Assembly: GCF_964204865.1 (NCBI RefSeq)
Contig: NC_135258.1
Location: forward strand, 3,215,001-3,279,000
From: Styela clava
Taxonomy: Eukaryota; Chordata; Ascidiacea; Stolidobranchia; Styelidae
Direction of reading: 5' to 3'
Length of the DNA stretch: 64,000 nt
Shown here: piece after piece, positions 10,020 to 44,330 of the stretch
How the letters are laid out: each line of letters starts with the position of its first letter
How positions within the stretch are numbered: position 1 is the first letter of the stretch
Made by a program: the position numbers and the translations under genes
Notes under the pieces: model-generated
Databases searched by the model: none
Seen by the model: the letters and a program-made list of their open reading frames with translations, nothing else
What the model was told of the DNA's origin: nothing

Positions 10020-10029
10020 TAATCGTATT

Positions 10030-23347: not shown

Positions 23348-26300
23348 ATGGAAATTGTATTTGGGAAACACCATTGTGAAATTGGGATAAAACATCTGGA
23401 TTATGGGCAAGTCATCGGTGGAGGTAAGAATTGGTATTATTGCACTCAGTGCACGACAGGGTTACTTAAATTTATTCAAAATTTAATTTTAGTAATAATC
23501 AAGGATAGTCCCTTCGTTATTATTGTACTCAGTACATGACAGGGATACTCAAATTCATAATTATAGTGATAATTTGAGATGATTTGAAATAATCATTTAG
23601 CATATGAAGTCTCGCAGTATAACCAAAAGGGCCTTTATTTCAATTCCAAAAACTTGAAATATTCGATATTCTGAATTCTTGATTTTGGTAAAAATTTGGA
23701 ATAGTTTCGTGTGAAAAGTTATCAATTTAAGCAGTTGAAATCTCGCAGTATAACTAAAAAGCATTCATTTCAATTTTGAAAGCTGTAAAAAGTATAGAAC
23801 AAAATGAAACCTCTATATATTATTTACAGTAGTTTTTTCGGCATACCTTCTTTTGGCGCCCAAATAAGGAGGCGCAGTTCTTACCACTTCATGGCAGCTC
23901 CTGCCATGAACGAACCGCGGCAGCTCTTGCCATGGTTTTATAGCGCTATTCAGTAATCAGTATTAACGATATATTCACAGATTGATGTACCAGATTTTAA
24001 TTGATCATGCAGAATTATATCTACTTAAACCCTAACCCCAAATCCATCAAAGCTGTATCCATAAGAAAAACAATCCAACTTACCCAATATTTGTCACCAT
24101 AAGGGACAGCCCTGTCTTTACGGCCCACCTGTCGTGGTTACGGCAGCAAAATTTTACCTGCCACTGGTTTTCAATTTGCTGCCGCGGTAACGGCAGCTCG
24201 TCATTGGTTTGTGACAGCTAAAAAGTCAGTCGCCATAGGTTTGGCCGTAGCAGCCATGGTATGAAAATATTGCCATGGTTTTGCGGCAGCTGCAGACGCC
24301 ACAGAATACTTAAAATTGCACTTGCAGGCTCAATTATGGTCAAATCTGTTACCTTTGGTGACACCATTTTACGATTAGCTAAAGATTAAAACTCTTGCTT
24401 GGTGATTATTTTTGTGGCCCAGCTCTGACAATATCAGATTCTATGTCATTATTCAGAACAGAATATTTGGCCTCTTCAATTATGTATGGTTTTAAATATT
24501 TATAGAAATTTAATACTTTAACTGTGCGAGTGTGGATATCACTGTCTCAGATCTGGTGATGACGCTGCGCAGTGGCGTAGCCAGGGGGGTGGTTTTGCGG
24601 ATCGAAAGCGCCCCTTTTAAAATGTAAAAAAAAATCATATTTCTGTATCAATTTTCCGTAGCTTGAAATGATTTTTAGACTCCCAATACTACTAAAAACA
24701 CGCGTATTCCAGTGTTCGATCGCACCCGCTAGCAGTTTCGATCTAACTTGGCAAACAAAAAAAATTTCAGCTCCTCCCCCCCCCCCCCCCTTTGATGAAA
24801 ATTTCTGGCTACGCCCCTGACGATGTGTATAATATTGGGGCTTAGCCTAGTCACTTGAGTAAGAGATTTTCTGATCGAATGGAATATTTGTACTCTATTT
24901 TTTAACTTCTTTATTTCAGGGAAAATTTAGAAAAATTATATTTTTGAGCAATCAGAGTCGTCTCTCAGAACCTTCATATAAACCCATTGAATATATAGGG
25001 TGTCCATGAAGTCTTCAATTTTTTTAAAATTGCACAAAGTGATTTTATCGATACCATAATATTGTTTTGGCCCTCACAGATGTATTAAATGAAGTAAAAA
25101 TACTTGAACAATTACTGATAAAAAAACAACAAACCTGGTTAAGATATATTGAGAACCTAACTTCATAGCAAAATTGAAATTGTAAAGGGACTGTACTGCC
25201 TGTACATCGACTTTTATGAGTTCTTTGTTGAACGCGATCTTATTGGACACGAAGTGGACATAACGATCGTTTCAAAATTTTGTTGTTATTGTTATTTGTC
25301 TCCGTCTCCATTTTTAAAAAATCGCTTTTCTCTTCGAATACTGGACCAATTGCTTTGAAATTTTCAGTGGTTAAAGATAAAATTTTTCTCCAGAAGGCTA
25401 TTACTTTTTTTTTCGCTATGACGTCATCAATATTATTGCCATTGGGTGGCGCTACGTGTCCATATATTTGAGCATAGCTCTCTTGTTTACAAGATAATTG
25501 ATATTTCATACTCAAAAATATCATTTCTGAATGAATCTAAAATGGTAAATTATTCAATGTTGACCACACTTAGGTCATATTTGATATCGGTATTTGCGAA
25601 GTGGGTAAAAACTAACCTAATTTCTCTGTTGAATATGAAGAAATTCCATATTCAAAAATATTATTTTCATTATGTATTCTAAAATCTAAATGGTAAATTA
25701 TTCGGTTCTGGCCATCTTTATATCATCTTTGTTACACTTTTTGCAAAGCTATTAATAAATGAATAATATTGAATAATGAGGATAATAATTGAATAATAAT
25801 AATGAATAATAATTGGATATTATTGAACTAGATAGCAATAGCGGAGACCGCTGACTTATCTTCCGCATGTTCTATATTTTTTTCGATTCATTTGCTCTGA
25901 CTTAATAGCGACACCGCGTGTCCCATCACTAATTAATTAATAACTCGTCCAAACTCATCCAAATCAATAGGCTTCAGGTCCGAGGTATGATGAATACACA
26001 TGCAAAATTTGGAGCAGATTCAACTTGAAAGTGTCTAACAGACAAACAGACAAATACCTATCAACATACTTATCGATCGAGATAGATATGTAAAAATGAC
26101 CTTGTATTGACCTACAAGTAATACAAAGGAAGAGTTTCCTTCTCTGAAGTAATTCAATTCCTCTCTTATAGTGAATTAACCCCAAAAGGTTGAGAGATCC
26201 TGTAATAAATTATCCGAATATATTTTCAAAATGCCCCCGATTGGTGTTTTATTAAGGGTTTCACACCTGTTTCATTTACCTGTTTTTTGTTACAGTGCGA

Positions 26301-27101
26301 TACGCCCCATCAGGACTTCTCAAGTTACTGGAAATGGGTAGAGCAGTCGGAAGCGAGCTATTCAGAAGATTATGCGATTCAGCAGGGGAAGAACACAATC
26401 ATATGATTTTCTTAAAATGGCAGCAAGTAGAAATATTGCCTTCGTTTTATAAAAAGGAAGCTGACCCTGACGACCCAACAACATCTATCGATTTTGTGAA
26501 TCAGAAAAAAAGGATGTTCCATTTTTTTTTGCCAATCAGTAACACGTCTCGTCGAATTGAAAACTGGGTTTTTGATTCAGGCACTGGAACACCGATAATG
26601 ACAGCTTCAGTTTTGTCTGTAAATATAAACCCTGAAACTCGCCGTCCGTTACGATTCAATAATTATTTAAAGAATTATTTCAGCCCAAAAAACCTTTCAT
26701 CTGCAAATATGCAGTTTCAAAAACTGCCGCCTTCATGCATGAGCGAATATAAAATGCCAGATTCTGTGTTGTTTCATTCGTTACCTACGCAGATTACAGT
26801 CCGTTATGTTGATCGTAACGGACACACAAACCAATCAGCTTACGGTGATATCTGCTATAATTGTCTTGCTGACGCTATTTCAAAGAAAGTCTTTTTTCTT
26901 TTTGGTTCAATTTTTGATTACAAAATTCGTCGAATGTCGTTCTTATATTTAAAAGAATCCCTTCTTGGGGATAAAGTAGAAGCCATCGTGTGGCAAGATG
27001 AGAGCCATAATTGGAAATTTAAATTTCATATTAAAAAAGACGGGATTGTTCTTTGTCAAGCTGAATTCATGTTTTACCCAGAACTGAAAGCAAAAATATA
27101 A
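23348..27101 (+). CDS. Double-hotdog thioesterase-like protein, copy A
   Basis: Two exons: 23348-23423 and 26296-27101, joined at a phase-1 intron (donor GAG|GTAAGA, acceptor TTGTTACAG). The product has 293 residues. Family-wide motifs: the first hotdog-like HLDYGQVIGG (residues 16-25), where the His of the other copies is Gln at 21; the invariant WQQVE; NINPETRRP, like the TRR segment of acyl-ACP thioesterases; and the second hotdog motif VDRNGHTNQSAY near residue 197. It ends in AKI, a weak PTS1-like tail. The fold suggests hydrolysis of acyl-CoA or acyl-ACP thioesters; the substrate is unknown. A splice acceptor (GCTTGTTTTAG) lies 46 nt before the ATG. The 2.87-kb intron is full of transposon debris. 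A MITE begins 10 nt after the stop. It is the most diverged of the four copies. Confidence 0.75.
24570..24819. mobile_element. hAT MITE with CAGTGGCGTAGCCAGG ends
   Basis: 250 bp, starting CAGTGGCGTAGCCAGGGG and ending CTGGCTACGCCCCTG, with flanking ACGCTGCG / ACGATGTG (6 of 8). A long C-run lies near the right end. A relative with GTAGC ends is at 29818-30324 and a fragment near 8450-8505. Confidence 0.75.
24997..25200. mobile_element. Mariner-like MITE, decayed copy
   Basis: Starts AGGGTGTCCATGAAGTC. The inner sequence (TCACAGATGTATTAAATGAA, ATATATTGAGAAC) is the reverse complement of the copies at 16440 and 54840. The right end has decayed. Confidence 0.6.
25906..26086 (-). repeat. Dispersed repeat, copy 2 (inverted relative to 15354)
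   Basis: The reverse complement of 15354-15580, from ATAGCGACACCGCGTGTCCC to TACTTATCGATCGAGATAG. Confidence 0.65.
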
Positions 27102-27111
27102 TTCTTTTTTG

Positions 27112-27324
27112 GGTACTCACGTAGTATGTGTACCAGGTTAGGGTTAGGCCATAATTTTATTCCGATTTCCCTTATTTTAATTCTATTTCGAGTTCGGGGA
27201 CTGTCTGTGTTAGCCAAATGAATATACCCCTGTCCATAGGATTCTGTCCCTTCACACAACTTGATGTGAAGTAGGCGAACAAAATTAGTTACCTCCATAT
27301 TGGTACACATACTTCCAGAGCACC
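27112..27324. mobile_element. GGTGCTCCCG-family MITE (longer subfamily) abutting gene A stop
   Basis: 213 bp. The ends GGTACTCACGTAGTATGTGT and CACATACTTCCAGAGCACC are inverted, with 8-bp duplications CTTTTTTG / ATTTTTTG (7 of 8). The left duplication starts 3 nt after the gene A stop codon, so the element has pushed away whatever 3' UTR was there. AGGTTAGGGTTAGG is present in the left arm. Related copies lie at 36409 and, inverted, at 36797. Confidence 0.8.
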
Positions 27325-27332
27325 ATTTTTTG

Positions 27333-28023
27333 TCTGAATTAGGGCTGTAGAGCCGAGTTTAGCATGTTTTCACTACAGTCTTAGCCAGGGTCGTCACATT
27401 TTCAAACAATACCTTACAATAATTTTTATACATTTCTTTATTCTATAATTTTTCTATAATTTATATATATGCATATGTCTGGCAATATAAACGTTCAGAA
27501 TTATTTTCAAAGGTAAATAGATTCAATTTTACTTAATAAAGTGCTGCTGTAATCTGTATCTTGCAAATATGAAAGTGCAATTATGTAGCCTATATTTTTT
27601 TATTATTGTTCAATTTTCATATCAAAATAAATTTTCAATAAATATTTTTCATTAAATAAGAACAATTGTATCTATAAGCCAAATGCCTTGTTAGGAGTGT
27701 CGTTGTATAAATTGTTACCATTTCTTATAGGCTTGATACTATTTCTATCTCTCTAGCGCCCTCTATCTTGTAAGCTCCATCTTTCTAATTTTTCAGTTCG
27801 CACACTGCAATGTTCACGGTGTGAAATTGCAATTATGTACAATTTATCTCTAATATTTAATTTTTCTTAAGTAAAATATTTGTTTCTTTTAATGACATAT
27901 GGTCTGTCCCAAGTCAGGGCATGTTAAAAAATTTCTTTCTTGTGTGTTCTAGCGTATCAGCCAATTTTGTTTGTTTAATAGGCTAATTATCAAAAATGCC
28001 CATTACTGATGTTACATCTGGAG
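27333..28023. other. Gene A 3' flank, no gene
   Basis: AT-rich. Several AATAAA/ATTAAA signals between about 27530 and 27660 could serve polyadenylation of gene A. CTAGCGCCCTCTATCTTG at 27755 is GC-rich relative to its surroundings. No coding frame. Confidence 0.4.
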
Positions 28024-28265
28024 CGAGTTGTAAGCAGCAAACCGATGCTTGACGGTGTGGCTACACTGCATTGGCTCAAAACCTGTTGGGGATAATTGTA
28101 CGTGGGAAGATTGCTCTACTCCCTTCCTTTGTAGGGTGGTTCTAGTTACCACTGGTAGGTTATCTGGAGCAAATAACTGGCTGACTAATCACATACCCAA
28201 CATGGACTGGTTCGCCACATGATTAATCCGTTTTATTGTTTTTCCTTTCCCCCTGAATCGCAAGC
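28024..28265 (+). repeat. Decayed tRNA-derived SINE
   Basis: Starts GCTTGACGGTGTGGCTACAC and continues TTGGGGATAATTGTACGTGG, then AACAAATAACTGGCTGACTA-like words and a CCCCCTGAATCGC tail. The tRNA head is internally deleted, so the B box is lost. Confidence 0.5.
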
Positions 28266-28587
28266 ATTTTAAAATTTTCTATCTTTACAATGACTGACTT
28301 CACTGTTCTAATCTGTAAATTATATTATAAAAGTATGCAATCTGGAATTTTTATTTTTTATCAATTCAGAATTAAGTTGTAATTCTATGTACTTGATTGA
28401 TACATATACTAATACCTAGAATAGCTGAGCATTTTTTTTGCAATTTTGTTTACCTCACTGTTTATCGCAGACGATAGAATAATATTGCGGGACATTTGTA
28501 CAATGTGACAAAACATTGTTAGAAGTAGTCTTTTTAATGAGGTGTTCTCTCTAAACAAGGCTCTGTGGAAGCAACCACTGATCATAT

Positions 28588-28910
28588 AGAGCAGGTGGGG
28601 GCAAAGATTTTGGGCCAGGGGCCAAAAATTGTGCCCACCCAGACTGGCGGGCTATGTAAATGTGACGTAAAAAGTTACATTTCATGAACAATATTTACAG
28701 TGTTACAAAAGAAAAAAACAATAAGCCTTGTGCCAAAATTAAATCGCAATTACAACAAATTCCTTGGGCTACTTTTCAGCTGAAACATCAAAATTTAGTT
28801 TTACTTAGGTTGTGGCAGGCGGCAGCATAGGGCGGGCCAGATTGAATTACCCAACAGGCTGGACGGATTTGGCTCGTCGACCGTCGTTTTCCCATGTCAG
28901 ACATAGAACC
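28588..28910. mobile_element. Decayed hAT-like element (relative of 33430-34010)
   Basis: Begins GCAGGTGGGGGCAAAGATTT and includes GTTACAAAAG, AATTCCTTGGGCTACTTTTC and GGGCGGGCCAGATTGAATTA. The reverse complement is recognisable at 33430-34010, where a further insertion interrupts it. Confidence 0.6.
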
Positions 28911-29012
28911 ATGATTTTTGGAACAACCAGAATTCAATTTATGACATCTTAAAAAATGTGTTTGAACATTTTATCTTTAAAAATATCTTTAACTCATGGC
29001 AACAACATAATA

Positions 29013-29559
29013 CAGTGTTTCCCCGAAAATAAGACCTAGCCTGACTTTTAAAAATGATTTTAATACAAGCCCTCCCTTCAAAAAAATTGGGTGAGCGAAC
29101 ACGTACTACTTCTTTTATCAATATCTTTCCATCTAAAATCTGTACGTTTCAAACCTTACTCGAGGTTTTGTTCGCTTTCCCGATTCTATAATCAGTTACT
29201 TTTATTTTTGTTTTTATCTATTATTTTATCGTCTATTGCTGACTATGGAGTCGAAATAAACTTATACTTATAAAAAAAGACTTAACGGTAGCCAACAGCG
29301 CAATTTTTTTTTGACCAAGTCTGAAATCTCTCCTACACGTTTTGAAAGATTAAAAATCTGTGTTTAGAAGTTTTTAAAAAATAAAAACATGTTATTTACG
29401 GGTATATATAAATGGATATAGGTTTTCATATTTTGTATATGCAAAAATATAGTAATTCTCTTTGTTTTAATTTTGTTTTTGATAAATAAAAATACCACAC
29501 ATTCCCCAAAGTGAAAAAAAATTGGAAAAAGGACCGTCTTATTTTCGGGAAAACACGGT
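29013..29559. mobile_element. Inverted-repeat element, CAGTGTTTCCCCGAAAATAA ends
   Basis: Left end CAGTGTTTCCCCGAAAATAA; right end TTATTTTCGGGAAAACACGG; about 547 bp. No clean flanking duplication. The reverse complement of part of it (AAACATGTTATTTA, TTTTCATATTTTGT) occurs at 38100-38560. It belongs to the broad hAT-like class by its ends. Confidence 0.6.
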
Positions 29560-29709
29560 AATTGCTTTTTTACTTGTACCGCTCGAACTACTATACAATA
29601 CCTCCACCTTATGATATGATTGTGAAGATCGTTTTCTAATTTCTCAATGTTGATTCCTTTCCATAGCAATAGACTAGCGTAGGTATATTAATAAACACTT
29701 GAGGGCGCA

Positions 29710-31930
29710 ATGGATGTTGTGTTTGGTAAAACTCATTGTGAAGTCGGACTCCAACATCTTGACTACGGACATATCATCGGTGGAGGTGAGACTGTTGGTC
29801 TATACTTGTTGGGGTCAGTGGTGTAGCAAGACTCTCGTGGGCCCCCCCCCGCAAAAATATTTTGTGGAAATGACCCTGAAAACTCTCGGACATAAGCTAA
29901 AACAACGCTTTTTTTATTTCGTCAAAAAGCATAACATGTCGCTATTAAAAGGCAATGGTAACCTAAAATTTCCCTTTTTTTTGGTTACTTTAATTTTTTT
30001 CATACGTGCTTCCTCTTATGCCCTTTCGTTGCGTTTCTGTGCGCCACTGAGAGGTTTCGCTTTCGACATCATTCACACAGCCTTCATAATTTTGCCGGTG
30101 CGATCAAACCACAAGACGCCGAAAATCGACGACTCCCTGGCATTGTTACGTAACAAAACGATTTGAGCAGAACTAACATCAACGATATAAGATGTGCATT
30201 ACTGGTTTTGCAATGCAGCTTTTGGGTTTGCGGCTTAAATTTCTAAATTCTAATCGCTTGGGCCCCTTTGCGCTGTGGGCCCTTTTGCTACCGCGGGGGT
30301 TGCGGGGTGGATGCTACGCCACTGTTTGGGGTATAGTCTATGTCAATATTCTTCAAACTTTTTCCATCATGACCCACTTGGCTCGGCCAAATTTTTTTGT
30401 AATCTTCAGGAACTAGAAATATACAAAAAAAATTTAGAAAATGATCAATATTAACCATGCCTTCAATGAAACCTGTGTGCTCATACAAAAGATTGAATCC
30501 TGGCTCTATTTCGACAATTTTGAGTCAGTACTGGTTCAAAATCTATTAAATTTGATCGATATTTATTTTCAACATGAGTTGGTAAACCCAAAGGCCCTCA
30601 GTGACATTCAAGTAGTGGTCAGGATAATAATTTCATCCTTGTTATTAAACAATGTGGCCCATACTCGACTGACTACCAAAAGGACTCTATTTGAACCTCA
30701 AACAAAGTGTTTGTGATGGCGAGAAAAAATCCAATCAAGCTTGTACATAACAATGTCCGTAAGTGGCTTGACGGTGCGGCGCATCGTGCTAGGCGTTAGT
30801 GATGCGCTCGCCACCACACCTCTGATTACCCTGCGTGGGTTCGCAGGTTCGAATCCCATGTGGGGATAATTACGTGTAAGAGAATTGCTTGACTCGCTAT
30901 TGGGTGGTTCACGTAACTGCTGGTCGGTTACAACTCTTCCACCATCAAGTCCATGCTTTTGAAAAACAAATAACTGGCTAACTTATCCCACACCTGTGGT
31001 TCACTATATGATTAAGTCACCTTTTCTCTCCCCTCAGAATAAATCGTAGATCCTATCCTAAGACGTAAATCTTGCTCGTTGCCTACTTTTATAACAGCAT
31101 GTTTCATTTTCATTTCAGCCTGTATTCCTCCATCAAAAATCTTAAAAATAATGGAGACGGTGAGGTCTGTTGGAGGTGAATTAATTGACAGGACTTCCAA
31201 AAAGCAAGGAATCGCCAAAAAAAGTATAATTTTTCTGAAATGGCAACAACTGGAATATGGAAAATCATTCTATGCTCGGCAAACGATTCCGTCAGAAACG
31301 TTTTCATACATAAAATACGTCAACCGTAAATTCCGTCTACACCATTATTTTTTGCCGGTTGGAAATACATCTGTGAGAGCTGACACTTTTATTAATGATG
31401 AAACGCTCGGAAAAACTGTTCTGTACAGTAATTCTTTGATTGTCAATGTCGACCCAACGACACGGCGCCCAGAACCATTCTTAAAATGCTTGAAGGAGCA
31501 TTTCAGTGTTGATAATTGTGAAACCCCGAATCTCAATTTCGATAAAATGTCACCAAAATGTACGGAAAGATACGAAAAACCTGAATCAGCAAAATTTCAT
31601 ACATATTCCAGTAGAATATCAGTCTCATTTCTTGATGCTAATAATCATTCAAACGCGGCGTGTTATGCTGATCTGTGTTACGATTGCCTCGGTGACGCCA
31701 TCGATAAAAAAGTCTTTGATTCATTGACTGGGTCTATCTTTGATCTTAAAATAAGGCGCGTATCATTGCTTTATCTTAACGAATGTAGAATGGGTGATAT
31801 TGTCGATACTGTGATCTGGCAAAACAAGAATAATAAAGAAGAATTCAGGTTCCATGTGCTGAAGAACGGTGATCTTATCTGTCAAGCAGAAATTGAGGTT
31901 TTTCCAATGTTGCTTGAGGCGAAGTTGTAG
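29710..31930 (+). CDS. Double-hotdog thioesterase-like protein, copy B
   Basis: Exons 29710-29785 and 31119-31930, phase-1 intron (GAG|GTGAGA to TCATTTCAG). The product has 295 residues. Exon 1 gives MDVVFGKTHCEVGLQHLDYG then HIIGG, with the first-half D18/H21 intact. Exon 2 carries WQQLE, NVDPTTRRPEPF and LDANNHSNAACYADLCYDCL, the second hotdog motif with Asp, His, Asn and Tyr in place. It ends in AKL, a functional type of peroxisomal PTS1 in known proteins. The inferred role is a peroxisomal acyl-thioester hydrolase; the substrate is unknown. Upstream acceptor candidates are TTTCCATAG at 29666 and shortly after. A hAT element sits 32 nt into the intron and a SINE later in it. The unusually long frame opening at 31079 is intron read-through; the true exon starts at 31119. 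Confidence 0.8.
29818..30324. mobile_element. hAT-like element in intron of copy B
   Basis: 507 bp. Ends CAGTGGTGTAGCAAG and GATGCTACGCCACTG, flanked by GTTGGGGT / TTTGGGGT (7 of 8). It lies 32 nt from the splice donor. Open frames across it (29699-30166, 30192-30416) do not resemble a transposase. Confidence 0.8.
30767..31060 (+). mobile_element. tRNA-derived SINE in intron of copy B
   Basis: The head starts CTTGACGGTGCGGC; the B box GGTTCGAATCC is intact near 30850. The body matches 46567-46903 and ends TAGATCCTATCCTA. The A-box region is altered. It ends about 58 nt before the exon 2 acceptor. Confidence 0.75.
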
Positions 31931-33429
31931 ACCAAAATGAATCGAATATTCTACATTTTCAATTCTTAATTTTAGGAATAATTTTAAAATGGCTCCATTT
32001 GAAAAGTTGAAATCTAGAGGTGCAATGAAAAGTCTTTTGGCCTGGGTCTAAAAAACTTTCAAGCTGCGAAAATTGCTATGTATGATAAAAAAGGTGCGCC
32101 TGGAGTATGCGTACCAAGATGGCCGACACCGGAACGTAGTATGTGTACCAGGTTAGGGTCAGGCCATAATTTTAGGCCTAAATACTACGGGAGTCACTTG
32201 GTCAATCCCCGAACTCGTAATAGAACAGAAATAAGGAAAATTGAAAAAAAATTATGCCCTAACCAAGTACACGTATTTCGTTCCGGTGTCCGCCACCTTG
32301 GTACGCATACTTCAGGTGTACCGATAAAAATTGCTTGTTTAACACATTTCAAACGAAGGGGGGGTTCGACCATCAAAACCCTCCCTGGCTAAGCCCCCTC
32401 TTTATTCAATTTCTTCGGAATAAAAAAAAGAAGTATTTATGAATATCAAATACCATTTTAACTTCTATTGTTTCGCTAGATTTAATAATTAGTAATTAGG
32501 TACTTTTTAATATGCATATAGAGCCATTACTATAACGTAATCATCTATTATCCTCATTAAAAATTATTTTTTTATATAGTCACTCAGTTTGATTTTATTT
32601 TTTCATGTGTTTTTCACATATATAAATGATTGACTCATTTTTTTGTTTTTTTCTCTAATTTTGAGATGATGGTTAAGGCCATTATTCAATCCACTTTGGG
32701 CTTCTTGTTATAGAAGTCAGTTTCCATTTTGAATTTGAATATTAATATAATCGCTTATTTACAGTACATTTTTATAATTAAAAGTTTTTGCATGATTTGG
32801 TATTTTATTGCTTAAATTTCTAAAATATGCGTTGTAAAGTGTAAATTTCTAAGAGAAAGAGTCATCAGATGCAAATGGAAATATTAAGAATTTTCGGTCA
32901 AGTCTGAGTTTAACTAATTTCAAATGTTTAGTCATTTCTACCTCTTGTTCGTGAAATCCTTTTGCATTTTAGAATTAATAATTGCCTATTTACAGTACAT
33001 TTTTATGCTTGAAACATTTTGCATGATTTGTTCTTTTATTGCTTAAATTTCTGAAATAAGCGTTGTAAAGTGTAAATTTCTAAGAGAAGCATGTCATCAG
33101 ATGCAAATGGAAAAATTTCAAATATTCTATTTGATTTAGTCATCTCTACCTCTTGTTATTAAAGCCCTTTTGTATTTGAATATTAATAATTGCTTTTTTA
33201 CAATACATTTTTATAATTAAAACATTTTTCATGATTCCTTATTTTATTGCTTCAAATTTCTAAAATATGCATTTATACCTTGAATTTTTTAGAAAAGGGA
33301 TATAATTTGTCTTAATTTTGTACGTACATGTACTGTTACTAATCAAGTTACCTCCCACTATATATTAAATTTTCAATAAAAATTCTGATTCTGATCATCA
33401 ACATGTTTTCTTGCTTTTCACAATAATGT
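31931..33429. other. 3' flank of copy B with a degenerate tandem array
   Basis: After the MITE at 32092-32322 there is a degenerate triplication at about 32749-33290, with units of roughly 200-240 bp. Each unit has TTACAGTACATTTTTAT or TTACAATACATTTTTAT, then GCATGATTTG-like and TTTTATTGCTTAAATTTCT words. The first two also share TGTAAAGTGTAAATTTCTAA. No gene. GGAATAAAAAAAAG at 32415 is a possible poly(A) signal for copy B. Confidence 0.55.
32092..32322. mobile_element. GGTGCTCCCG-family MITE, copy 3
   Basis: 231 bp. Left arm GGTGCGCCTGGAGTATGCGT, right arm ACGCATACTTCAGGTGTACC, and a perfect 8-bp duplication GATAAAAA on both sides. It also contains CCAGGTTAGGGTCAGG. The internal frames read on both strands are not genes. 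Confidence 0.8.
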
Positions 33430-34010
33430 ATAGAACATGACTACGGCCCTGGGCTAAATCCGGCCCGTTTGGTAATTCAATCTGGCCCGTCTGATGTTGC
33501 CACAACCAAACTAAAACCAAATTTTGATGTTTCAGCTAAAAAATAGCTCAAGGAATTTGTTTAAATTGCAAATAAATTTAGTTTTGGCACGGGGCTTCTT
33601 GTTTGCCAATTTTGATTTTGTAACACTGTAAACATTTGCTAATGATTTGGTTTCTGCGAGACTAACTACTTATCCTTCTTCTATGCTTTTGTGTCGGTGG
33701 ATCCGTATGCATATAATGCAAGGATACTGTAGCAAGAGTAGAGATAACAATCCTGAGTGATTCAAGAGTCTTGCTGCACACTAACACAAATATATTTCTG
33801 TAACGTTTCGTCTGACCAAGGTCAGACTTCTTCAGACATACATAGTATATTTGTGTTAGTGTGCAGCAAGACTCTTGAATCACTTAAGACTGTAAACATT
33901 GTTCATAAAATTTTTTGTCACGTTTTTTGTCACACTCACATGGCCTCCAGTTCAAGTGGGCAAAATTGTTGGCCCCTGGCCCAAAACCTTGCCCACCCCT
34001 GGTATAGAGC
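33430..34010. mobile_element. hAT-like element interrupted by a nested insertion
   Basis: The left part (33430-33635) and right part (33889-34010) together match the reverse complement of 28588-28910. The right end reads CTTGCCCACCCCTG. The 253 bp between them (33636-33888) is foreign and is bordered on both sides by ACTGTAAACATT, which is single in the uninterrupted relative. Confidence 0.65.
33756..33884 (-). repeat. 39-bp perfect inverted repeat enclosing a hammerhead-like core
   Basis: Arms 33756-33794 and 33846-33884 are perfect inverted complements (39 bp). Between them, read on the minus strand, is CTGAAGA, then GTCTGACC-TT-GGTCAGAC, a perfect 8-bp hairpin, then GAAAC. This is the order of a hammerhead ribozyme: core, stem II, GAAA, with the long arms as stem I. 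The core would normally read CTGATGA, so one position differs. Penelope-like elements and retrozymes carry such motifs. Stem III is not convincing. Confidence 0.5.
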
Positions 34011-34035
34011 ATGCAACTGTCTGGGTTTATGGACT

Positions 34036-34360
34036 ATAGGATAGGATAGGATTTACATATTTATCCCGGGGGAGAGGGAAGCCGATAAGACGGCTTATCC
34101 ATATGGCGAACCACGGCCTCTCGTCCGGTTACCATTCCAAGTCGGGTATGGGATTAGTTGTATTGTTTGTTTTCGGAAGCATGGACTTGGTGGTGGAGGA
34201 AGCCGTAACCGACCAGCGGTTACGTGAACCACCCAACGACGACGAGGAGTCCAGCAATCCTCTTGCACATAACCATCCCTACATGGGATTCGAACCTGCG
34301 AACCCACGCAGAGTAATTAGAGGTGCGGTGGCGAGCGTATTCCTAACGCTCGCCACCTAG
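34036..34360 (-). mobile_element. tRNA-derived SINE, near full length
   Basis: On the minus strand: head with GGTGGCGAGCGTTAGGAATA, B box GGTTCGAATCCC near 34288-34277, body, and a tail made of repeated ATCCT units (plus-strand AGGATAGGATAGGAT at about 34038). Same family as 46567-46903. Confidence 0.8.
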
Positions 34361-34777
34361 TTTTTTTATGAAATGTTTTCACATCTTACCTCCGTAAATT
34401 AGGCCCTAGGCAAGCAGTCGATTTAAAAGTGCCTGTCTGTTGGCATAGCAGACATCAGGGGATCTCAAAACTTACGGAGCCAGTGAAAAGGTTGACCATT
34501 ATTTATTCACAAAGCCCCACAATGAATTGATGAAAATTAACTATTGGAACAAATAGACAATGTCATATCTGAATTACCGGCTTGTTGCTGCATTTTGTTG
34601 CTACCGCTGTCAAATCTCTCTAATGCCGTGATTACTTCTTTGTACAATTACGACATTAACCAAGTCAATATTTTAATAAGGAAATACTGGTCAAAGCTTC
34701 TAGGTTTCTTTCGCAGAGTATTGAACTCCATAAGAAGCACTTTGAGAACCTGTGGCCTACTTTATAGGTGTTTTATC

Positions 34778-34888
34778 GGTGCTCCCGTAGTATTCGTTCC
34801 AAGATGGCGCACAACCTGAACATAGTATGTATACCAATCAGGGTTAGCAGGTTGTGCGCCATCTTGGTACGAATACTAGGGGAGCACC
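34778..34888. mobile_element. GGTGCTCCCG-family MITE, short palindromic copy
   Basis: 111 bp, almost a complete foldback: GGTGCTCCCGTAGTATTCGT at the left and ACGAATACTAGGGGAGCACC at the right. The perfect 8-bp duplication GTTTTATC is present on both sides. Confidence 0.9.
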
Positions 34889-34896
34889 GTTTTATC

Positions 34897-35553
34897 TATC
34901 ACAGTTTAAAGATCTGGGTAGCCTCCGAGCACACTGTATTTTCATAGTACAGTATAGGTAGCTTACCATACGTCCCGCTTTTGGCGGGACAGTCCCGCTT
35001 TTCATCGTCTTGTTCTGGTGACCCGACAAGTCATCCAAATGTCCCGCTTTGGCGTTTAACCAGTCGGCATAATACACGAACAATACCAATTAGATTGTTC
35101 TTGATACTGTTGTTGCTGTGTAGCCTATGGTTAGCCTTCTTACTGAAGGTGGGTACGTGGTTCTGTTTGTTTCGTTGTTTTGTTAGCGGATAATTGCTAC
35201 ATTTTGTTACGTGTGAGCCCCGTACCCCAAAATGGTGCTTAATGTTAACATAAATTTATCTCTATTTTCGAACTGAAACCGATATTTAGACAGACAGCGC
35301 ATGAACTCTCGATTACAATATGGTCATGGAAGACGGTCGGGATGGTATTAAATGTAGGCCCCCAATGTAAAATTTGAAGCTGCAAAAATCACAGCTTTGG
35401 TCCGTGGCGCCGTCCCGCTTTGAGATCACAAAAATATGGTAACCCTAAGTATAGGTCTAGTAACTGCTTGTCTAGGGCCTTATTTATAAGTGTAAAGGCA
35501 AAGGTGTAAAACAATGGTACAAAAAAGCTGCTCATGAAATATAGTGAAAATAT
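34897..35553. other. Intergenic upstream of copy C, no gene
   Basis: Contains a low-copy-looking repeat between about 34960 and 35450: CGTCCCGCTTTTGGCGGGAC at the left and GTCCCGCTTTGAGATCAC at the right. No coding frame of note. Confidence 0.4.
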
Positions 35554-35789
35554 GGTGCTCCCGAAGTATGCGAACCAAGATGGCCGACATCGGAACGTAA
35601 CATGGGTAAAAAATTAGGGTTAGGCGATAATTTTTTTCCAATTTTCCTTATTTTAGTCCTATTATCAGTTCAAAGACTAGCCAAGAGCCTCCCGTAGTAT
35701 TTATACCTAAAATTATGGCCTAACCCTAACCTAGTACAAATATTACATTCTGAGGTCCGCCATCTTGGTTCGCATACTTCAGGAGCCCC
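35554..35789. mobile_element. GGTGCTCCCG-family MITE, copy 5
   Basis: 236 bp, nearly identical to 20505-20740. Flanked by GAAAATAT / AAAAATAT (7 of 8). It ends about 160 bp before copy C's ATG and so sits in that gene's promoter or 5' UTR region. Confidence 0.85.
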
Positions 35790-35949
35790 AAAAATATAAA
35801 CCAGTGGTTCTTAATCTTTCAAGATTCGTGGCCCTATTTCAAAAATCTATGCTCGTATTTTGTGCCAATGTTTCATAAACCTTGATATTGATGATTAAAC
35901 TTGAATATTGTTTATTACAGCTTTTATTTAATTATACATATGTCGCATC

Positions 35950-37924
35950 ATGGATTTTGTCAAAGGTAAAACTCATACTGAAATTGGACTGCAACATTTG
36001 GATTATGGACATGTCATCGGTGGAGGTAAGCGGTATGATCCCCAGCTTTTTATTTTAGGGGGGGGGGTGTTTCCAAACTTAGACAGTGGTAGATATTTTG
36101 CTGTTATAAAACTATTCAACTTTGTTATGTATGAAAGTGTGATGTCACACCTTGAAATTAAGGGGGGGGGGGTTGAAATTTTTTGGAAAAGGGGAGGGAA
36201 ATCACTGAAAGTGAATCATATAAAGGAATCTTTAGTCCAAATAAATGAGGATATTTTTCATATTTATAAAAAAGATTTGAGGAAAGAAGATTTGTTCATG
36301 GGTACCAATGGATGAGGCTTTTACAGGCTCAGGGTGGGTGAGACCACTTTAAGCTGTTAGGAGTTAGCAATCCTTTTACGCAAGAGCCTCACAATTTAAA
36401 ACTGGAAAGGCTACTCCCGCAATATGTGTACCAGGTTAGGATTAGGCCATAATTTTATCCCGATTTTTCGTATTTTAATTCTTTTACAAGTTCGGGACTG
36501 TTTGTGTTAGTCAAATGAATGTACCCCCTGCTCATAGGTTTCGGTCCCTTTACACAACTTGATGTAAAATAGGCTAACATAATTAGTTACCACCTTATTG
36601 GTACGCATACTTCTGGAGCGCCAAAAATCCAACCTCTCATTTAAAAAAAGTCAAAAATTTCAACTCTACCGAGCTAAAAATTTGTTACCATGGAAATTAA
36701 CTATTATATCACCAGTCTTGTTTGCTCACAATCCTGTTTTGCTCAAATAAAATTAGAAACCGTGGTCAGTGAGGTGTTCAATCAATTTGTAGATCCAAAA
36801 GTGTGTGTACCAATATGGAGGTAACTAATTTTGTTCGCCTACTTTACATCGAGTTGTGTAAAAGGACTGAGCCTATGGGCAGGGGTGATATTCAATTGGC
36901 TAACATAGACAGTCCCCGAACTCATAATAGAATTAAAATAAAGGAAATCGGAATAAAATTATGGCCCTAACCGGGTACACACACTACAGGAGTACAGAGA
37001 AAGGTATATAGCATGTGGCAATGGCATGGTGGCGATTGTGTTCCAGGCATAGTTTTGACATTTTTCCCTCTCAAATGTTTATTTTATGAACGACTTCCTA
37101 CATTCTTTTTTTTTTCAGACTTCGTCGTTTCACCGTTCAGCATATTAAAATACTTTCAATTTTCGAGAGGTTTGTCGTTTGACCTCAATCATGGATTGAT
37201 GAAAGAAAACGGTCTCCACCAAAGTTTGATGGCATTCATGAGATGGCAACAAATGGAATATCTTCCTTCTTATTATGAAGGGGATTCTGCCGCGATCCCG
37301 AGATATAGAGCATTGGTGAAACGCCCTTATCGTTTATTTCACTACAATTTGCCTATTGGGAAAACATCCCTCAATTTTGAAAATGTCATGGTGGATATGG
37401 TTACTAAAAAACCAGTGGTTTGTGCTACCGGTATGTTCGTTAATATTGATCCTGAAAAAAGAAGGCCAGCACCATTTCCAAAATGCCTACAAGATCATTA
37501 TACTGAGGAAAATTGTGAGAAGGTTCCATTTAATTACCAAAAAATGGAACCAAAATGCTCTGTTAAATATGATAAGCCACAAAATGTTGTGTCGCACACC
37601 CTAACGAGCAAGGTTGTTAGTCGACTGGTGGATTCATACAAACACATGAACGACTGTTCTTATGTTATTCTTTGTTTTGATTGCCTTTCTGATGCAATTT
37701 TCAGCAATGTGTTCTCTTTAAAGGGTTCGATTATGGATTATAGAATCCGTCGTGTGTCTTTGCTTTATCTAAAAGAATGTGTATTGGGTGATATCATCAA
37801 CACAGTAGTTTGGCAAAGTGAGCAAAATAAATGGCAGTTTAAGTTTCATGTCATAAAAAATGATGAAGTCCTCTGCCAGGCTGAAATAGAATTTTTCACA
37901 AATGATTTCACTTTTAAATTATAA
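35950..37924 (+). CDS. Double-hotdog thioesterase-like protein, copy C
   Basis: Exons 35950-36025 and 37119-37924, phase-1 intron (GAG|GTAAGC to TTTTTTCAG). The product has 293 residues. Exon 1 reads MDFVKGKTHTEIGLQHLDYG then HVIGG (D18, H21). Exon 2 opens DFVVSPFSILKYFQFSRG, whose position fits the central hotdog helix following the DxxGHV motif. Then come WQQME, NIDPEKRRPAPF and VDSYKHMNDCSY (D197, H201, N203, Y207). The C-terminus is FKL, which lacks the small residue needed at -3 of a good PTS1. It is very close to copy D. A splice acceptor TTTATTACAG (35911-35920) lies 29 nt before the ATG; copy D has a matching one. The open frame beginning at 37013 is intron read-through. Confidence 0.82.
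36409..36622. mobile_element. GGTGCTCCCG-family MITE (longer subfamily) in intron C
   Basis: Ends GGCTACTCCCGCAATATGTG and GCATACTTCTGGAGCGCC. Interior shared with 27112-27324 (GTTCGGGACTGT, ACACAACTTGATGT). No clear flanking duplication. Confidence 0.7.
36797..36990. mobile_element. Same MITE subfamily in opposite orientation, intron C
   Basis: Reverse-oriented relative of 36409-36622: GTACCAATATGGAGGTAACT, then GACAGTCCCCGAACTCATAA and ATGGCCCTAACCGGGTACAC. Ends decayed. The pair could form a large hairpin in the intron C transcript. Confidence 0.65.
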
Positions 37925-38099
37925 TTATTTAAGTTCAATTTTAAATTATTCAATTACAGTGTTCACAATTTCGAGCAATGAAATTAATTTTCGTCTATGA
38001 TCACTGCTGCCACCTAGAGAGCAAATCTTAAGCAATCAAGCCATATTTGCAGGGATGTGGAGTCCCTGTCATCTCCAGCACCCAACCTTAAAATTCCTA

Positions 38100-38560: not shown

Positions 38561-40054
38561 TGCTTGCCGGTTAAAAATACTTATTCAAATTCAACTTGAT
38601 GCTTTTTTAATTAATCAGTTTGATTACCACTGTTAGGAGTCGAAATTCTGACTTCGAAAATTACAATTTCGACTCCCATGGATGGAACGATTAGCTCGTG
38701 AGCATTCCAATGCAGAACATAAAGCAGTTTCAGAATTTGTCAAATTTCGCACCCACCTCGAAAAAAACTGGCTAACAATAAGCTACAAATAACAGATAGT
38801 AGGCCAAAAGTATGTTTTAATCAGAAAAACTTTGGATGGTATGTAAATATCTAAAATCAGGCAGGCAAAATGGAATCTAACAAATATAGCTTCAGCCCCT
38901 CCCCTTTTTGGGGCGTGTCCCCAATTTGAGAACCACTGAATTATAACCAATACTGGTTCGTCTAATATTTAAGCCGTTTTCTTGGTATTTCTCTCATCTG
39001 CAACAAGTAATACTTCTCACAGTAATTATTCTTAATTGCTCAACTATGTTCAAACCTTCCAACATGTTTTCGTGGATTCAACTTACGAATTCTGTGTTTT
39101 TTTTTCCCTGTTAATTTTGTGCAGGTATATATTGTGTTATGCCAATCTAATTATATATGCATGAATATCAAAATGCCAGATAGTGTAAGGAAGTTCATGT
39201 TGCCAGTTTTTGATTTTATTTTTTCCAATATAATGTACATCACACTAGATGAACTATCTAGTCAGCTGTTCCCATAGCTAAATGGGAAGTGTGGCTCGCT
39301 ATCATTATTTGGGCTGGTCATTTCGAATTGGATAGTGAATTATTCGTATCGGTCCAGAGAAAATTGTTAAAATTGCCATTTTGTTTTCCCATTTGCCAAA
39401 GGTTGAGGTGAATCAGTAATTTTTTGTTGAAGCAACTCTTTTCTTCCTGGTGATTTATTGGTGGAACATGTTTCTTATTGTGTGTGACTACTCATTGAAG
39501 TGTGTAAGTGACAGATTCTGTTTTTAGTTGTTTGTGAGACTGGTGGACCCATACAATTACCAGTCTTCCAAGCATTTAAATCATCAGGCATTCGATCTAA
39601 TTATCATACCTCTGAGACAATAAATTTTATTCTTTATCATGATGCTTTTCATATATATGTAGCTGAAACTTGTTTTTCTTTAACTGAGGACCATATGCAC
39701 TTTAAATCAACTTAATTCTCTTCTGTTTAAATTCTATTTTTTGATGGTATCTTTTTAATCAAATTTAGATAGCTCAAATTAATTGAAATAAATTTTTAAT
39801 GCAAATCATGGAACCAATTTCTCCTATTGAAGGGTAGGAAGGACGTTAGCAAGATGGCATGGCCGTGCTGGGATGGCAGATTACACATCTTGGGTAAGGA
39901 ATTGGGTAGGCAATGCTGAACAGGAAAAAAAACAGTCTATCCAACAAAAGGTAGCTCTTTACATGGGTTGAATTTAGACCCAATCACCTGATTGGACAAA
40001 TTCGAGCCATATTTTTTTTCACAAAATACGACATGGATAACACGGCTCGGTCCA

Positions 40055-40185
40055 TGGCTCCTTTCAAAGACTCTCAACACTTAATGCCCAATCTGTGGCC
40101 CCTTCCAAAGACTCTCAACACTTAATGCCCAATCTGTGGCCCCTTCCAAAGACTCTCAACACTTAATGCCCAATCTGTGGCCCCT
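40055..40185 (+). repeat. 41-bp minisatellite, about three units
   Basis: Tandem units with TGGCCCCTTCCAAAGACTCT and ACTTAATGCCCAATCTG at a 41-bp period (TGG at 40096 and 40137), plus diverged units to about 40270. It lies about 400 bp upstream of copy D's first exon. Confidence 0.8.
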
Positions 40186-40576
40186 TCTGAAGACTCGAAA
40201 CACTTATGGCCCATTATAAACGCTCACAACAACTATGGCCTAATCCATGGCCCCTTTCAAACACTCAAAAGCTTTGAGTCCCCCTAGTTTAATATATAGT
40301 TTTTTTCTCTATGCATCAGGTATTTTACTTTAAAATAATGTGGTCATTGCGAATACGACCCAGTGAAGGTTTTAGTTGGAATTCGACGGAGAACTGCTCT
40401 GTGGCCCAGTTTTTTTTGCTTGTGGCCCCTAGAGACCCACTCCGTAGCCCCCTGGGGGAACAGAGGTTCCAGTTGGAGAAACCTTGTTATAGACAATTAA
40501 AAATGAATATTGTTTGTTTCAGCTTTTCTTTGAATTTATTTACGATAGATAGTTCTTGGTATACATATGTCGCATC

Positions 40577-42351
40577 ATGGATTTTGTCAAAGGTAGAACT
40601 CATACTGAAATTGGACTGCAACATTTGGATTATGGACATGTGATTATTGGTGGAGGTAGGTCATGTATGGATATCTGTGATTCAGGGTGACCCAATAAAA
40701 ACAGAGTTTAAATATTTGGGCTTGTTTAGTTGCTATTTCTTGATATTCGAATTATCACATCATAGAATATAAGCTCCCAGGGTGACCCAAAAAAACAAAA
40801 CCCAAGAATTCCGAAATTACCTCTGAGAAAACGAAGATAATCCATTTAACACTTGAACTTCTATATGGGCGCTCCGGAAGTATGTGTACCAAGATGAGGC
40901 ACAACCTGAACCCTAACCTGGTACACATACTATGTTCAGGTTGTGCGCCATTTTGGTACACATACTTCTGGAGCACCTCTGTTTGTGTATGAAAGTGCCC
41001 GAGAGTTTCAATAATCCTGGTAATTCAGCAATCACTTTGCACAAGAGTTATATTTATTGTATAATATGTTCTCAATGAATAAATCACTACATTTTCTTTA
41101 TTAGACATTTCTCACATCCCTCTGAAAAAGGCTCTGTATAAGCAGACACAATTATGTAACAAGATAATTTTCAGTTCCAATCGAAAACAGGTTGCTGAAA
41201 CTTTTGGGTACAACCATACACAATCAGAAATTTGTGCGTTAAGTTTTTTTTTTTTCATTTTTGCAAGAAATAGTCGAATTCTGATTCAGTGATAGAGAAG
41301 GATCAGTTTTTGGTACGATGACCTAGAAAGCCATTTGTGGTTAGATGGCACATTTGTTGTGCTCAGCACAGCGCACCAGCTGTGTAGCTCCAAACAGAGA
41401 TATTGTAGGAAGCTACACAGCGAGGGGGACACGTCCCCTCAAAAAATGTCTACGCTCCGTTGTGGGTTGCAACACACCGTTTGAGAACCACTGTTCGACA
41501 TTTTTTTTGTTCCTCCACTTATGAAAACTTTTTTTGTTGTTTCAGACTTTGTCGTTTCACCGTTCAGCATACTAAAAAACTTTCAATTTTCGAGAGGCTT
41601 TTCTAATACCCACATGCGTGAAATGATGAAAGAAAGCGGTCTCCATCAAAATTTGATGACGTTCATCAGATGGCAACAAATGGAATATCTTCCTTCTTAT
41701 TATGAAGGGGATTCTGGCGCGATCCCGAGATATAGAGCATTCGTGAAACGCCCTTATCGTTTATTTCACTACAATTTGCCTATTGGGAAAACATCCCTCA
41801 ATTTTGAAAATGTCATGGTGGATATGGTTACTAAAAAACCAGTGGTTTGTGCTACTGGGATGTTTGTTAATATTGACCCAGAAAAACGAAGGCCAGCTCC
41901 ATTTCCAAAATGTCTACAAAATCATTATACTGAGGAAAATTGTGAGAAGGTTCCATTTAATTACCAAAAAATGGAACCAAAATGCTCTGTTAAATACGAT
42001 AAGCCTCAAAATGTTGTGTCGCACACCCTAACGAGCAAGGTTGTTAGTCGACTGGTGGATTCATACAAACACATGAATGACTGTTCTTATGTTATTCTTT
42101 GTTTTGATTGCCTTTCTGATGCAATTTCCAGCAATGTGTTCTCTTTAAAGGGTTCAATTATCGATTATAGAATCCGTCGTGTGTCTTTGCTTTATCTAAA
42201 AGAATGTGTATTGGGTGATATCATCAACACAGTAGTTTGGCAAAGTGAGCAAAATAAATGGGAGTTTAAGTTTCATGTCATGAAAAATGATGAAGTCCTC
42301 TGCCAATCTGAAATAGAATTTTTCCCAACTAATCCAACTTCCAAATTATAA
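40577..42351 (+). CDS. Double-hotdog thioesterase-like protein, copy D, PTS1 SKL
   Basis: Exons 40577-40655 (79 nt) and 41546-42351, phase-1 intron (GAG|GTAGGT to TTGTTTCAG). The product has 294 residues. Exon 1 carries one extra Ile codon (HVIIGG) compared with the other copies. Exon 2 is nearly identical to copy C, except residues just after SRG and a few at the C-terminus. All motifs are present: D18/H21, WQQME, NIDPEKRRP, and VDSYKHMNDCSY. It ends NPTSKL, a canonical peroxisomal targeting signal. Inferred to be a peroxisomal acyl-thioester hydrolase. The 5' acceptor GTTTGTTTCAG at 40522 matches the one before copy C. The donor GTAGGT is weaker than in the other copies. The gene looks intact and recently duplicated from C or its ancestor. 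Confidence 0.83.
40868..40977. mobile_element. GGTGCTCCCG-family MITE, short copy in intron D
   Basis: 110 bp, foldback-like: GGCGCTCCGGAAGTATGTGT left and ACACATACTTCTGGAGCACC right. Flanks TCTATATG / TCTGTTTG (6 of 8). Confidence 0.75.
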
Positions 42352-43956
42352 TTATATAAATTCAAATTCAAATCATAGTGTTCACATCTTCGAGCAATGG
42401 AATTTTTATAACGTCAATTTCTGTCTATAATCTTTGTCGCCACCTAGAGAGCAAATCCTTTCGATCTGTCCGCTTACTCAACTCCTATCCTTAAAAATCT
42501 ATTTTTTTACAAACTTTGGCATAGGCTGCTTTAAATGTTTTTTGGGGAATGCTTGTCGACTTAATGCTTTCCTAATTCCCTGCTCAATGCTTACTCAAGT
42601 TTTTGATTACCATTGTTAAAATTCCATAAAGAATTTTGACTCTATCCGATTTACATCAAAACGAGCCAAACTCGAATTACAACATCACAGCCCTGAGTTT
42701 ATTTGAGTTGATTGCTGGATTCCACATCGACCACTGGTTGTAGCTTCCTTAACTAATCGAAAGTCCACGGACGAGACAATTAGTTTGTGAGTGCCCTGAG
42801 TGATAATCACACAATACTCACTGATTTACATTATGTTTAAGCCATTTTATTGACTCCCCTCTAATCCCCGATAAGTATTAAAATTGTTTAGTGTTTGGAT
42901 TCATGTTAGCACTTTTATATCTTTTAGCCACAAAGTAATTATTCGTCATTGTTTGAGTATATTATAACCGTCCAACATGAATTCACAGAATCACAGGTCT
43001 GTTACAGCTTCCTCCACCATCGAGTCTAGCATCTGAAACAAATAACTGGCTAACTCATCCCATACCCGGCATGGACTGGTAACCTAACGAGAGACCGTGG
43101 TTCGCCATATGATTAAGCCATTTTATCGATTTTCCTCTCCCCGGGCATAAATATGTTTATCCTTTCCAAAACTTCGAAATTTGTCTCGGTTGATAAAAGT
43201 TCATATTGTGTAATGCAAATCTAATTATATATGCATGAATATCAAAATGCCAAATAGTGTAATGAAGTTCATTTTATCTTTGCTAATATATTGTAACTAG
43301 AGAAACTAATTGGTCAGCTGTACCCATGGCCCATTGTCAGCCCACTATAGGGGGTGAACAACCTTCATAAAATTTCAAACCCCGCCCCTTATTTTAAGAT
43401 GTGATACCACACTATAATCTCCCCCCTAAAATGAAAAGCTGGGAAGCGTGACTCTCTATCAATATTAAGGCTGGGCATTTCAAATCAAATAGTAATTATT
43501 CTAATAGGTGCAGACAAAAATTCAATTCAGTGCAATCTTTTTTTTTTTTTATTCGCCAAAAACTGAGATGAATCAGTCATTTTTTGTTTAGGCTATATAT
43601 TTTGAATGCACACTCTTCTCCCTGGTAATTCATTGGTGAAACATGTTTCTTATTGTGTGTGGCAACTCAGTAAACTGAGTGATAAATTCAATGTTTTCAG
43701 TAATTTAAGAGTCTGAAAGACCCATTAGAATGAAAAATCACATACGATTGCCAATTTCCAAGTATTTGATTCTGAAATCATCATGTATTCGCTCAGCCCT
43801 AATCACATCTTTCGCAGAGGATAAATTCTATCCTTTATGATGGTGGCTTCCCTATAGATTTTGCTAAGAGAATATGCAATTTTTAGTCAACTTAATTCTT
43901 TTTTATATGAATTATTGATGGTAACTTTCTAATTAAATTTACATAGTTCAAATTTA
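42352..43956. other. Copy D 3' flank and spacer, no gene
   Basis: Starts with GCCACCTAGAGAGCAAAT as after copy C. Contains a SINE 3' fragment at 43005-43170. The part from about 43190 to 43950 is homologous to the spacers near 39120-39860 and 45090-45850. Confidence 0.55.
43005..43170 (+). repeat. SINE 3' fragment in copy D spacer
   Basis: TTACAGCTTCCTCCACCATC, AAATAACTGGCTAACTCATC, CATACCCGGCATGGACTGG and a CCGGGCATAAATATG tail match the SINE at 46567-46903. Confidence 0.7.
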
Positions 43957-44330
43957 CTTACCAAAAAATGGAACCAAAATGCTCTGTTAAATACGAAAAG
44001 CCTTAAAATGTTGTGTTGCACATCCCAACAAGCAAAGTTGTAAGTCGAATGGTGGATAATTACAAGCACGTGAATGACTGTTCTTATGTTATTTTCTGTT
44101 TTGATTGCCTTTCCAATGCGATTTCCAGCAATGTGTTCTCTTTAAAAGGTTCGATTAGGAATTATAGAATCCGTCGTGTATCTTTGTTTCATCTAAAAGA
44201 ATGTGTATTGGGTGATGCCATCAACACAGTAGTTTGGCAAAGTGAGCAACATGAATTAGAGGTCAAGTTTCAAGTCCTCTGTCAAGCTGAAATAGAATTT
44301 TTCCTAAATGATTTCGCTTATAAATTATAA
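43957..44330 (+). pseudogene. Truncated pseudogene copy E of the thioesterase family
   Basis: Matches only the C-terminal 125 or so residues of copies C and D, from YQKMEPKCSVKY to the stop. The first exon and most of exon 2 are missing; the homology begins abruptly at about 43957 next to spacer DNA. A CAA-to-TAA change puts a stop at 44004-44006. Six codons are deleted between KFQ and VLCQAEIEF. It ends YKL. The second hotdog motif survives as VDNYKHVNDCSY. Non-functional remnant. Confidence 0.9.

Follow-up and report, generated by a model that had tools for sequence, protein, structure and literature searches.

Locus and gene models

We analysed a 64,000-nt stretch of the ascidian Styela clava genome (NCBI RefSeq assembly GCF_964204865.1, contig NC_135258.1, positions 3,215,001 to 3,279,000 of the forward strand; hereafter the window). 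On its + strand lies a tandem array of thioesterase-like genes, which the sequence indicates to be real and which is predicted to comprise four intact two-exon genes (g1–g4) and a truncated fifth copy (g5) (Table 1). An earlier note, made from the letters of the stretch alone, had described four such genes on one strand with a shared phase-1 intron position, all encoding 294 residues, together with a pseudogene. The four genes could be rebuilt as described. Exon 1 encodes 25–26 residues plus the first base of the next codon, and exon 2 encodes the remaining ~268 residues. The introns of g1–g4 are all of the GT-AG type and in phase 1, with lengths of 2872, 1333, 1093 and 890 nt, respectively, and the genes start 6362, 6240 and 4627 nt apart from g1 to g4. 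The predicted products comprise 293, 295, 293 and 294 residues, so the length given earlier holds for g4 alone; the three extra bases in exon 1 of g4 encode one Ile.

Identity between the copies changes abruptly at the start codon and at the splice donor, which supports the gene model independently of RNA. In all six pairs among g1–g4, identity is 0.68–0.98 within exon 1, compared with 0.23–0.47 in the 60 nt upstream of the ATG and 0.20–0.37 in the 60 nt downstream of the donor. At the acceptor, a clear rise in ungapped identity is confined to g3/g4 (0.48 to 0.88) and g1/g2 (0.32 to 0.53); identity falls in the other four pairs, whose copies differ by a codon at this very place.

The presumed pseudogene, g5, does contain an in-frame stop codon. 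It is a 5′-truncated piece of exon 2 (84% identity to g4 across 410 columns, one in-frame stop) that retains the C-terminal hotdog (C-hotdog) alone, and its interpretation as a full-length pseudogene was rejected. A tblastn search of the window (E = 1e-3; queries: the g1, g2 and g4 products and g3 exon 1) found no copies beyond these five. The introns of g3 and g4 do not align, perhaps in part because of an inverted pair of repeats in the g3 intron. Between and within the array genes, from window position 26800 to 37200, there is a mobile-element-like repeat family (reported arms 82–172 nt) in direct and inverted orientation. There was no Rfam match at the gathering thresholds and no tRNA.

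Table 1 Features of the array (positions are those of the window; PTS1, peroxisomal targeting signal type 1)
Feature	Position	Strand	Description
g1 exon 1	23348..23423	+	25 aa and 1 base; start of the N-terminal hotdog (N-hotdog)
g1 exon 2	26296..27101	+	Remaining N-hotdog, VNINPETRRP linker, C-hotdog with DRNGHTN; C-terminus AKI (PTS1-like)
g2 exon 1	29710..29785	+	
g2 exon 2	31119..31930	+	C-hotdog DANNHSN; C-terminus AKL (PTS1)
g3 exon 1	35950..36025	+	
g3 exon 2	37119..37924	+	DSYKHMN (Asn to Tyr); C-terminus FKL, not PTS1 under the pattern used
g4 exon 1	40577..40655	+	3-nt insertion
g4 exon 2	41546..42351	+	DSYKHMN; C-terminus SKL (canonical PTS1)
g5	43953..44330	+	5′-truncated remnant with the C-hotdog alone; TAA in frame at 44004; lacks 18 nt present in g4; C-terminus YKL
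Inverted pair of mobile-element-like repeats, ~210 nt each	36412-36625 and 36786-36994 (span 36412..36994)	.	Within the g3 intron

The array combines old and recent duplications. Across exon 2, g1, g2 and g4 share 40–43% identity, and synonymous divergence (dS) in the older pairs has saturated or nearly so (values of 1.99, 2.50 and 3.10 for three pairs; for two it could not be computed). Their nonsynonymous divergence (dN) is 0.48–0.55. The recent pair, g3/g4, has a dN of 0.047 and a dS of 0.132 by the Nei–Gojobori method (NG86), in keeping with the earlier proposal that the family is still duplicating. With a dN/dS of about 0.36, this pair is under purifying selection. In blocks of 40 codons along the pair, two regions evolve fast: a single block of the N-hotdog (dN 0.178, dS 0.205) and the C-terminal 17 codons (dN 0.200, dS 0.348). 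In the other six blocks dN is 0–0.023, and two of these have no synonymous changes.

Relationship to double-hotdog acyl-ACP thioesterases

Sequence profiles identify the predicted array proteins as relatives of the double-hotdog acyl-acyl carrier protein (ACP) thioesterases (ThYme family TE14). The Pfam model Acyl-ACP_TE_C (PF20791) scored 24.0–30.9 bits in all five copies, above its curated cut-off of 21. Alignment of the four spliced products with a profile of nine TE14 proteins using hhalign gave a probability (P) of 97.1 and a score of 78.4 over 190 columns; the best of 100 column shuffles reached 24.6 and the reversed alignment 14.5. One of the nine proteins comes from bacterial genome contigs, four from plasmid records and four from records that are labelled as phage but unverified; the latter eight were taken from 33 plasmid and phage matches, with frames read from stop to stop. 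The N-terminal half scored 46.9 (shuffle maximum 21.1) and the C-terminal half 43.9 (shuffle maximum 23.1), and because each half beats all of its 100 shuffles, the homology spans both hotdogs. Alignment of the exon-2 products with plant FatA/FatB pieces gave a P of 90.6 with 27% identity over 135 columns, in which the Asp, Asn, His and Glu of g2 align with those of FatA. The earlier assignment to the hotdog-superfamily acyl-thioesterases, with two hotdogs in a single chain and plant and bacterial acyl-ACP thioesterases as the nearest relatives, is borne out by these matches and by the fold comparisons below.

Searches of general libraries returned fainter signals. With one protein as the query, FatA-type chains in the Protein Data Bank (PDB) were matched weakly (E = 0.086 and 0.11), and a profile query gave weak matches to a single-hotdog thioesterase (E = 0.0049) and to the bacterial TE14 protein 2ess (E = 0.0051). 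The best NCBIfam match, in two of four members, was to a YbgC-type thioesterase (E = 0.026). The N-hotdogs of g3 (E = 3.1e-5, 24.8 bits) and g4 (E = 3.8e-4, 21.3 bits) weakly matched 4HBT_2, whose curated cut-off of 25.5 bits was reached by none of the five copies.

Other results weigh against a TE14 origin, most of them in the N-terminal half. The N-terminal Pfam model of the family, PF01643, had no match in any of the five exon-2 frames at E values up to 10, nor in spliced g1, g2 and g4 at E values up to 1, whereas a control TE14 protein from the bacterium Balneola matched both PF01643 (108.5 bits) and PF20791. The Pfam search that the earlier note had proposed as a check thus came out positive for the C-terminal model, with PF01643 unmatched and 4HBT_2 below its cut-off. 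Against a single bacterial TE14 protein, P was 18.7 for the full alignment and 0.4 for the N-terminal half; against one bacterial and three plant sequences it was 94.0, with the match mainly in the linker and C-hotdog. Comparison of the two halves of the array proteins with each other gave no signal for the N-terminal half, whose signal came with the nine TE14 proteins. NCBIfam yielded no confident family, and none at all for g2. Mean predicted local distance difference test (pLDDT) values of the structure models were also weak, and most of the N-hotdog lies below 50.

These models are two AlphaFold predictions of exon-2 products, with exon 1 excluded, with mean pLDDT values of 43.8 and 52.6. 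In both, Foldseek ranks acyl-ACP thioesterases (FatA/FatB/bacterial TE14) first. The best E value for the first model was 2.9e-3, with no matches at 0.001, and for the second 6.7e-6, with 93 matches at 0.001; the second model is not fully independent, since its alignment contained a bacterial TE14 row. The C-hotdog of g4 in the second model shows a strand, a helix and four strands, with ten-residue block means mostly at pLDDT 60–88 and the lowest at 43. Superposition of the second model on whole TE14 chains gave low template modelling (TM) scores of 0.28–0.41, with a root-mean-square deviation of ~14–15 Å in most such rows, as against target-normalised TM scores of 0.56–0.69 for single hotdogs among the 50 rows listed. 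Support for the predicted double-hotdog architecture is good in the sequence profiles and goes only halfway in the models.

Predicted active site, C-terminal signals and proposed function

In acyl-ACP thioesterases the C-hotdog holds the active site and the N-hotdog the acyl pocket, as described in an excerpt of PMC11043601. The corresponding C-hotdog motif in the array reads DRNGHTN in g1, DANNHSN in g2, DSYKHMN in g3 and g4, and DNYKHVN in g5. Hence DxNxHxN and the Glu are complete in g1 and g2, and the first Asn is replaced by Tyr in g3, g4 and g5. All four intact genes encode (L/F)LYL(K/N)E on the strand after the motif and an inter-domain linker of the form VN(I/V)(D/N)P..RRP.

The C-terminal tripeptides of g1–g4 are AKI, AKL, FKL and SKL. 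Under the PTS1 pattern [SAC][KRHN][LIM], taken from a passage in PMC4690255, three of the four intact genes fit. In the window as a whole, such tripeptides precede 53 of 6251 stop codons (0.85%), and they end 6 of the 209 stop-to-stop frames of at least 60 aa, the array's three included. Of the import machinery, Pex14_N was looked for, and it has a match of 34.5 bits (cut-off 23.2) on another contig of the genome (C8). Mouse and zebrafish thioesterase families include PTS1-bearing members, according to excerpts of PMC8919083 and PMC4356623. The C-terminal signals point away from acyl-ACP and toward peroxisomal acyl-coenzyme A (acyl-CoA) as the substrate.

We give a probability of roughly 0.5 to the reading that the array encodes peroxisomal acyl-CoA hydrolases of TE14 descent. 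The proteins would be acyl-thioester hydrolases of two fused hotdogs, from the same stock as FatA/FatB and bacterial TE14. The acyl chain would sit in the N-hotdog, and the catalytic Asp-x-Asn-x-His-x-Asn would lie in the C-hotdog at the head of its long helix, with the Glu on a later strand (LLYLxE). At least g1, g2 and g4 would enter the peroxisome through the PTS1 receptor and there convert acyl-CoA to free acid and CoA, as an independent counterpart of vertebrate ACOT8 and ACOT3–6. That the proteins are catalytic, act on acyl-CoA instead of acyl-ACP and reside in peroxisomes is inferred, as is any difference in specificity of g3 and g4.

Several observations speak against this function: (i) g3 (FKL) and g5 (YKL) have no PTS1. 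(ii) Tripeptides within one gene family are not independent of each other. (iii) g4 stands apart in the final ~50 columns, where identity is 0.90–0.91 for g3–g5 and 0.82–0.84 for g3–g4, and its SKL may therefore be a late gain. (iv) Silent PTS1s are documented, as an excerpt of PMC545800 describes. (v) The motif of g3 and g4 has Tyr in place of the first Asn.

The missing PTS1 of g3 and the existence of silent PTS1s would also fit cytosolic thioesterases that off-load acyl chains from ACP or a polyketide synthase (PKS), enzymes of the FatA/FatB substrate class that would work with an ACP-bound synthase and whose PTS1-like ends would be silent. The nearest relatives by sequence and fold are indeed acyl-ACP thioesterases (PMC3176148, in excerpt). 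We nevertheless consider such a role unlikely: PTS1 is present in three of the four intact genes despite the low exon-2 identity of g1, g2 and g4, and a scan of five nearby window proteins found no polyketide or fatty-acid synthase, with no search for one made elsewhere in the genome.

Distant paralogues

The 376.6-Mb assembly, in which the window occupies bases 3215001-3279000 of contig C10, was searched for further members. PF20791 matched at three places (of six candidates), all within the array. A search with the g2 exon-2 protein found at least eight places among 11 candidates, namely the five array copies and three elsewhere, two of them on contig C9 ~3.7 kb apart and one on C18. The C9/C18 proteins are 24–26% identical to the array (25–28% in the search rows) and 75–84% identical among themselves, and their second exons start at a candidate acceptor with the position and phase seen in the array. 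They keep the Asp and His of the motif and neither Asn, have Gln in place of Glu, lack the RR of TRRP and end in AAK, with no PTS1. None of the three exceeded a Pfam cut-off, 4HBT_2 being matched below threshold only, and comparison of the C9/C18 proteins alone with the TE14 profile gave a score of 31.9 (P 28), a value without a shuffle control. The genes are constrained, with a dN/dS of 0.26–0.37.

Upstream of the C9/C18 second exons are strings of ~25 residues that start with MEYRIAGATGS and end with IGG before a GTAAG donor, near positions 3552, 4596 and 8601 of locus L022 (C9) and near 7284 of locus L023 (C18). They are probable first exons of these genes, although their scores in the exon-1 search did not rise above background. 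As there are three strings on C9 and two second exons were found there, one first exon may be spare.

The C9/C18 genes probably form a distant, non-hydrolytic sister clade. This clade, the PTS1 signals and the Asn-to-Tyr change in g3, g4 and g5 were missed by the earlier note, whose interpretation as a whole is partly supported. A non-hydrolytic role could extend to the array, with some or all members acting as acyl-CoA binders (carriers, sensors or subunits) after g3, g4 and C9/C18 lost active-site residues. The Tyr in g3, g4 and g5 and the continued constraint on C9/C18 genes without both Asn, the Glu and the RR would agree with it; all motif residues are present in g1 and g2, however, and because other hotdog thioesterases need no more than the Asp, activity need not be lost with the Asn. 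We regard this explanation as rather improbable for the array. Somewhat more probable, though less likely than not, is a combined scenario in which an undescribed animal TE14-type class left acyl-ACP chemistry and reached the peroxisome by gain of PTS1 and has here split into a catalytic, peroxisome-addressed array and constrained C9/C18 non-hydrolytic acyl-CoA binders lacking the motif Glu, the Asn and PTS1.

Comparison with known thioesterases and origin

The array proteins resemble FatA/FatB and bacterial TE14 (PF01643 plus PF20791) in having two predicted hotdogs in a single chain with homology over both halves, a TRRP-like linker, Glu and GD after the motif and, in g1 and g2, DxNxHxN on the C-hotdog. 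They differ in their animal host, in the N-hotdog unmatched by PF01643, in the PTS1 of three of four genes and in the Asn-to-Tyr change of g3 and g4; by eye they show no plastid transit peptide. Single-hotdog 4HBT_2 proteins, of which THEM6 is one, share with them the weak N-hotdog matches of g3 and g4 and differ in having a single domain. ACOT8 belongs to the TesB-type double-hotdog family (PF13622/PF02551) and not to TE14, ACOT7 is likewise placed in a different hotdog subfamily, and the type I ACOTs are α/β-hydrolases of unrelated fold. A TesB/ACOT8 type was rejected for the array: PF13622 and PF02551 are absent from the Pfam scans of the five exon-2 frames and three spliced products. Likenesses to these enzymes are that ACOT8 carries the PTS1 SKL (PMC8919083, in part) and shares the proposed peroxisomal acyl-CoA hydrolysis, that ACOT7 has two thioesterase hotdogs per chain, one of them inactive (excerpt of PMC4356623), and that the mouse Acot1–6 cluster consists of tandem duplicates, some peroxisomal (Acot3–5 in a passage of PMC8919083, Acot3–6 in one of PMC4356623).

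In the excerpts of PMC3176148 and PMC11043601, TE14 is described as plant and bacterial, which would suit recent acquisition by horizontal transfer, with a bacterium or an alga as donor, or contamination of the assembly, followed by duplication. This is very improbable. The intron position and phase are apparently shared by 24–26%-identity paralogues on other contigs, an animal LNX gene lies nearby on the same 23.5-Mb contig, and scans with window proteins gave no relative (alignment searches of bacterial genomes and viral contigs; tblastn of plasmids). Recent contamination was rejected on the introns, the animal neighbour gene and the paralogues; an ancient transfer, as distinct from recent gain, could have taken place. 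Viral contigs had no match to a bacterial TE14 query either, and a second scan of the bacterial genome contigs, with the plant pieces as query, found one locus.

None of the papers among the literature matches listed has this animal family as its subject. According to section 22 of PMC5087672, the giant-clam contigs that were retained once Symbiodinium matches had been taken out include an acyl-ACP thioesterase. The family is thus probably wider in animals, and the lineage-specificity proposed earlier is unconfirmed. COX1, the one lineage marker searched for, had no match in the assembly and lent no support to the chordate-like attribution of the earlier note. If the proteins are peroxisomal acyl-CoA hydrolases, they would add to the cases in which animals have turned to a different family of enzymes to carry out the same step, as with the mouse tandem Acot genes, and annotators would be warned that "acyl-ACP thioesterase" labels in invertebrates may denote peroxisomal acyl-CoA enzymes. 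Because a single genome contains both a motif-complete and a degenerate clade, the question can be put to a direct test.

Neighbouring genes

A C2H2 zinc-finger gene and an animal LNX gene are among the genes near the array. The latter (window 9973-12732, +) is an apparently intronless frame of 919 aa with a RING domain, a TRAF-type zinc finger and four PDZ stretches. A zinc-finger frame (48836-50071, −) contains 84-nt tandem units that keep the opposite strand open for 381 aa (48871-50016, +). A single-frame pyridoxal phosphate enzyme (2557-3750, −), whose nearest solved structures are D-cysteine desulfhydrase and 1-aminocyclopropane-1-carboxylate (ACC) deaminase, shares the stretch with animal genes. 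A three-repeat mitochondrial carrier in a single open frame (5523-6713, −) is presumably similar to the phosphate carrier, and one long frame with G-patch and double-stranded RNA binding domains (56161-58380, −) encodes a protein that we take to be SON-like.

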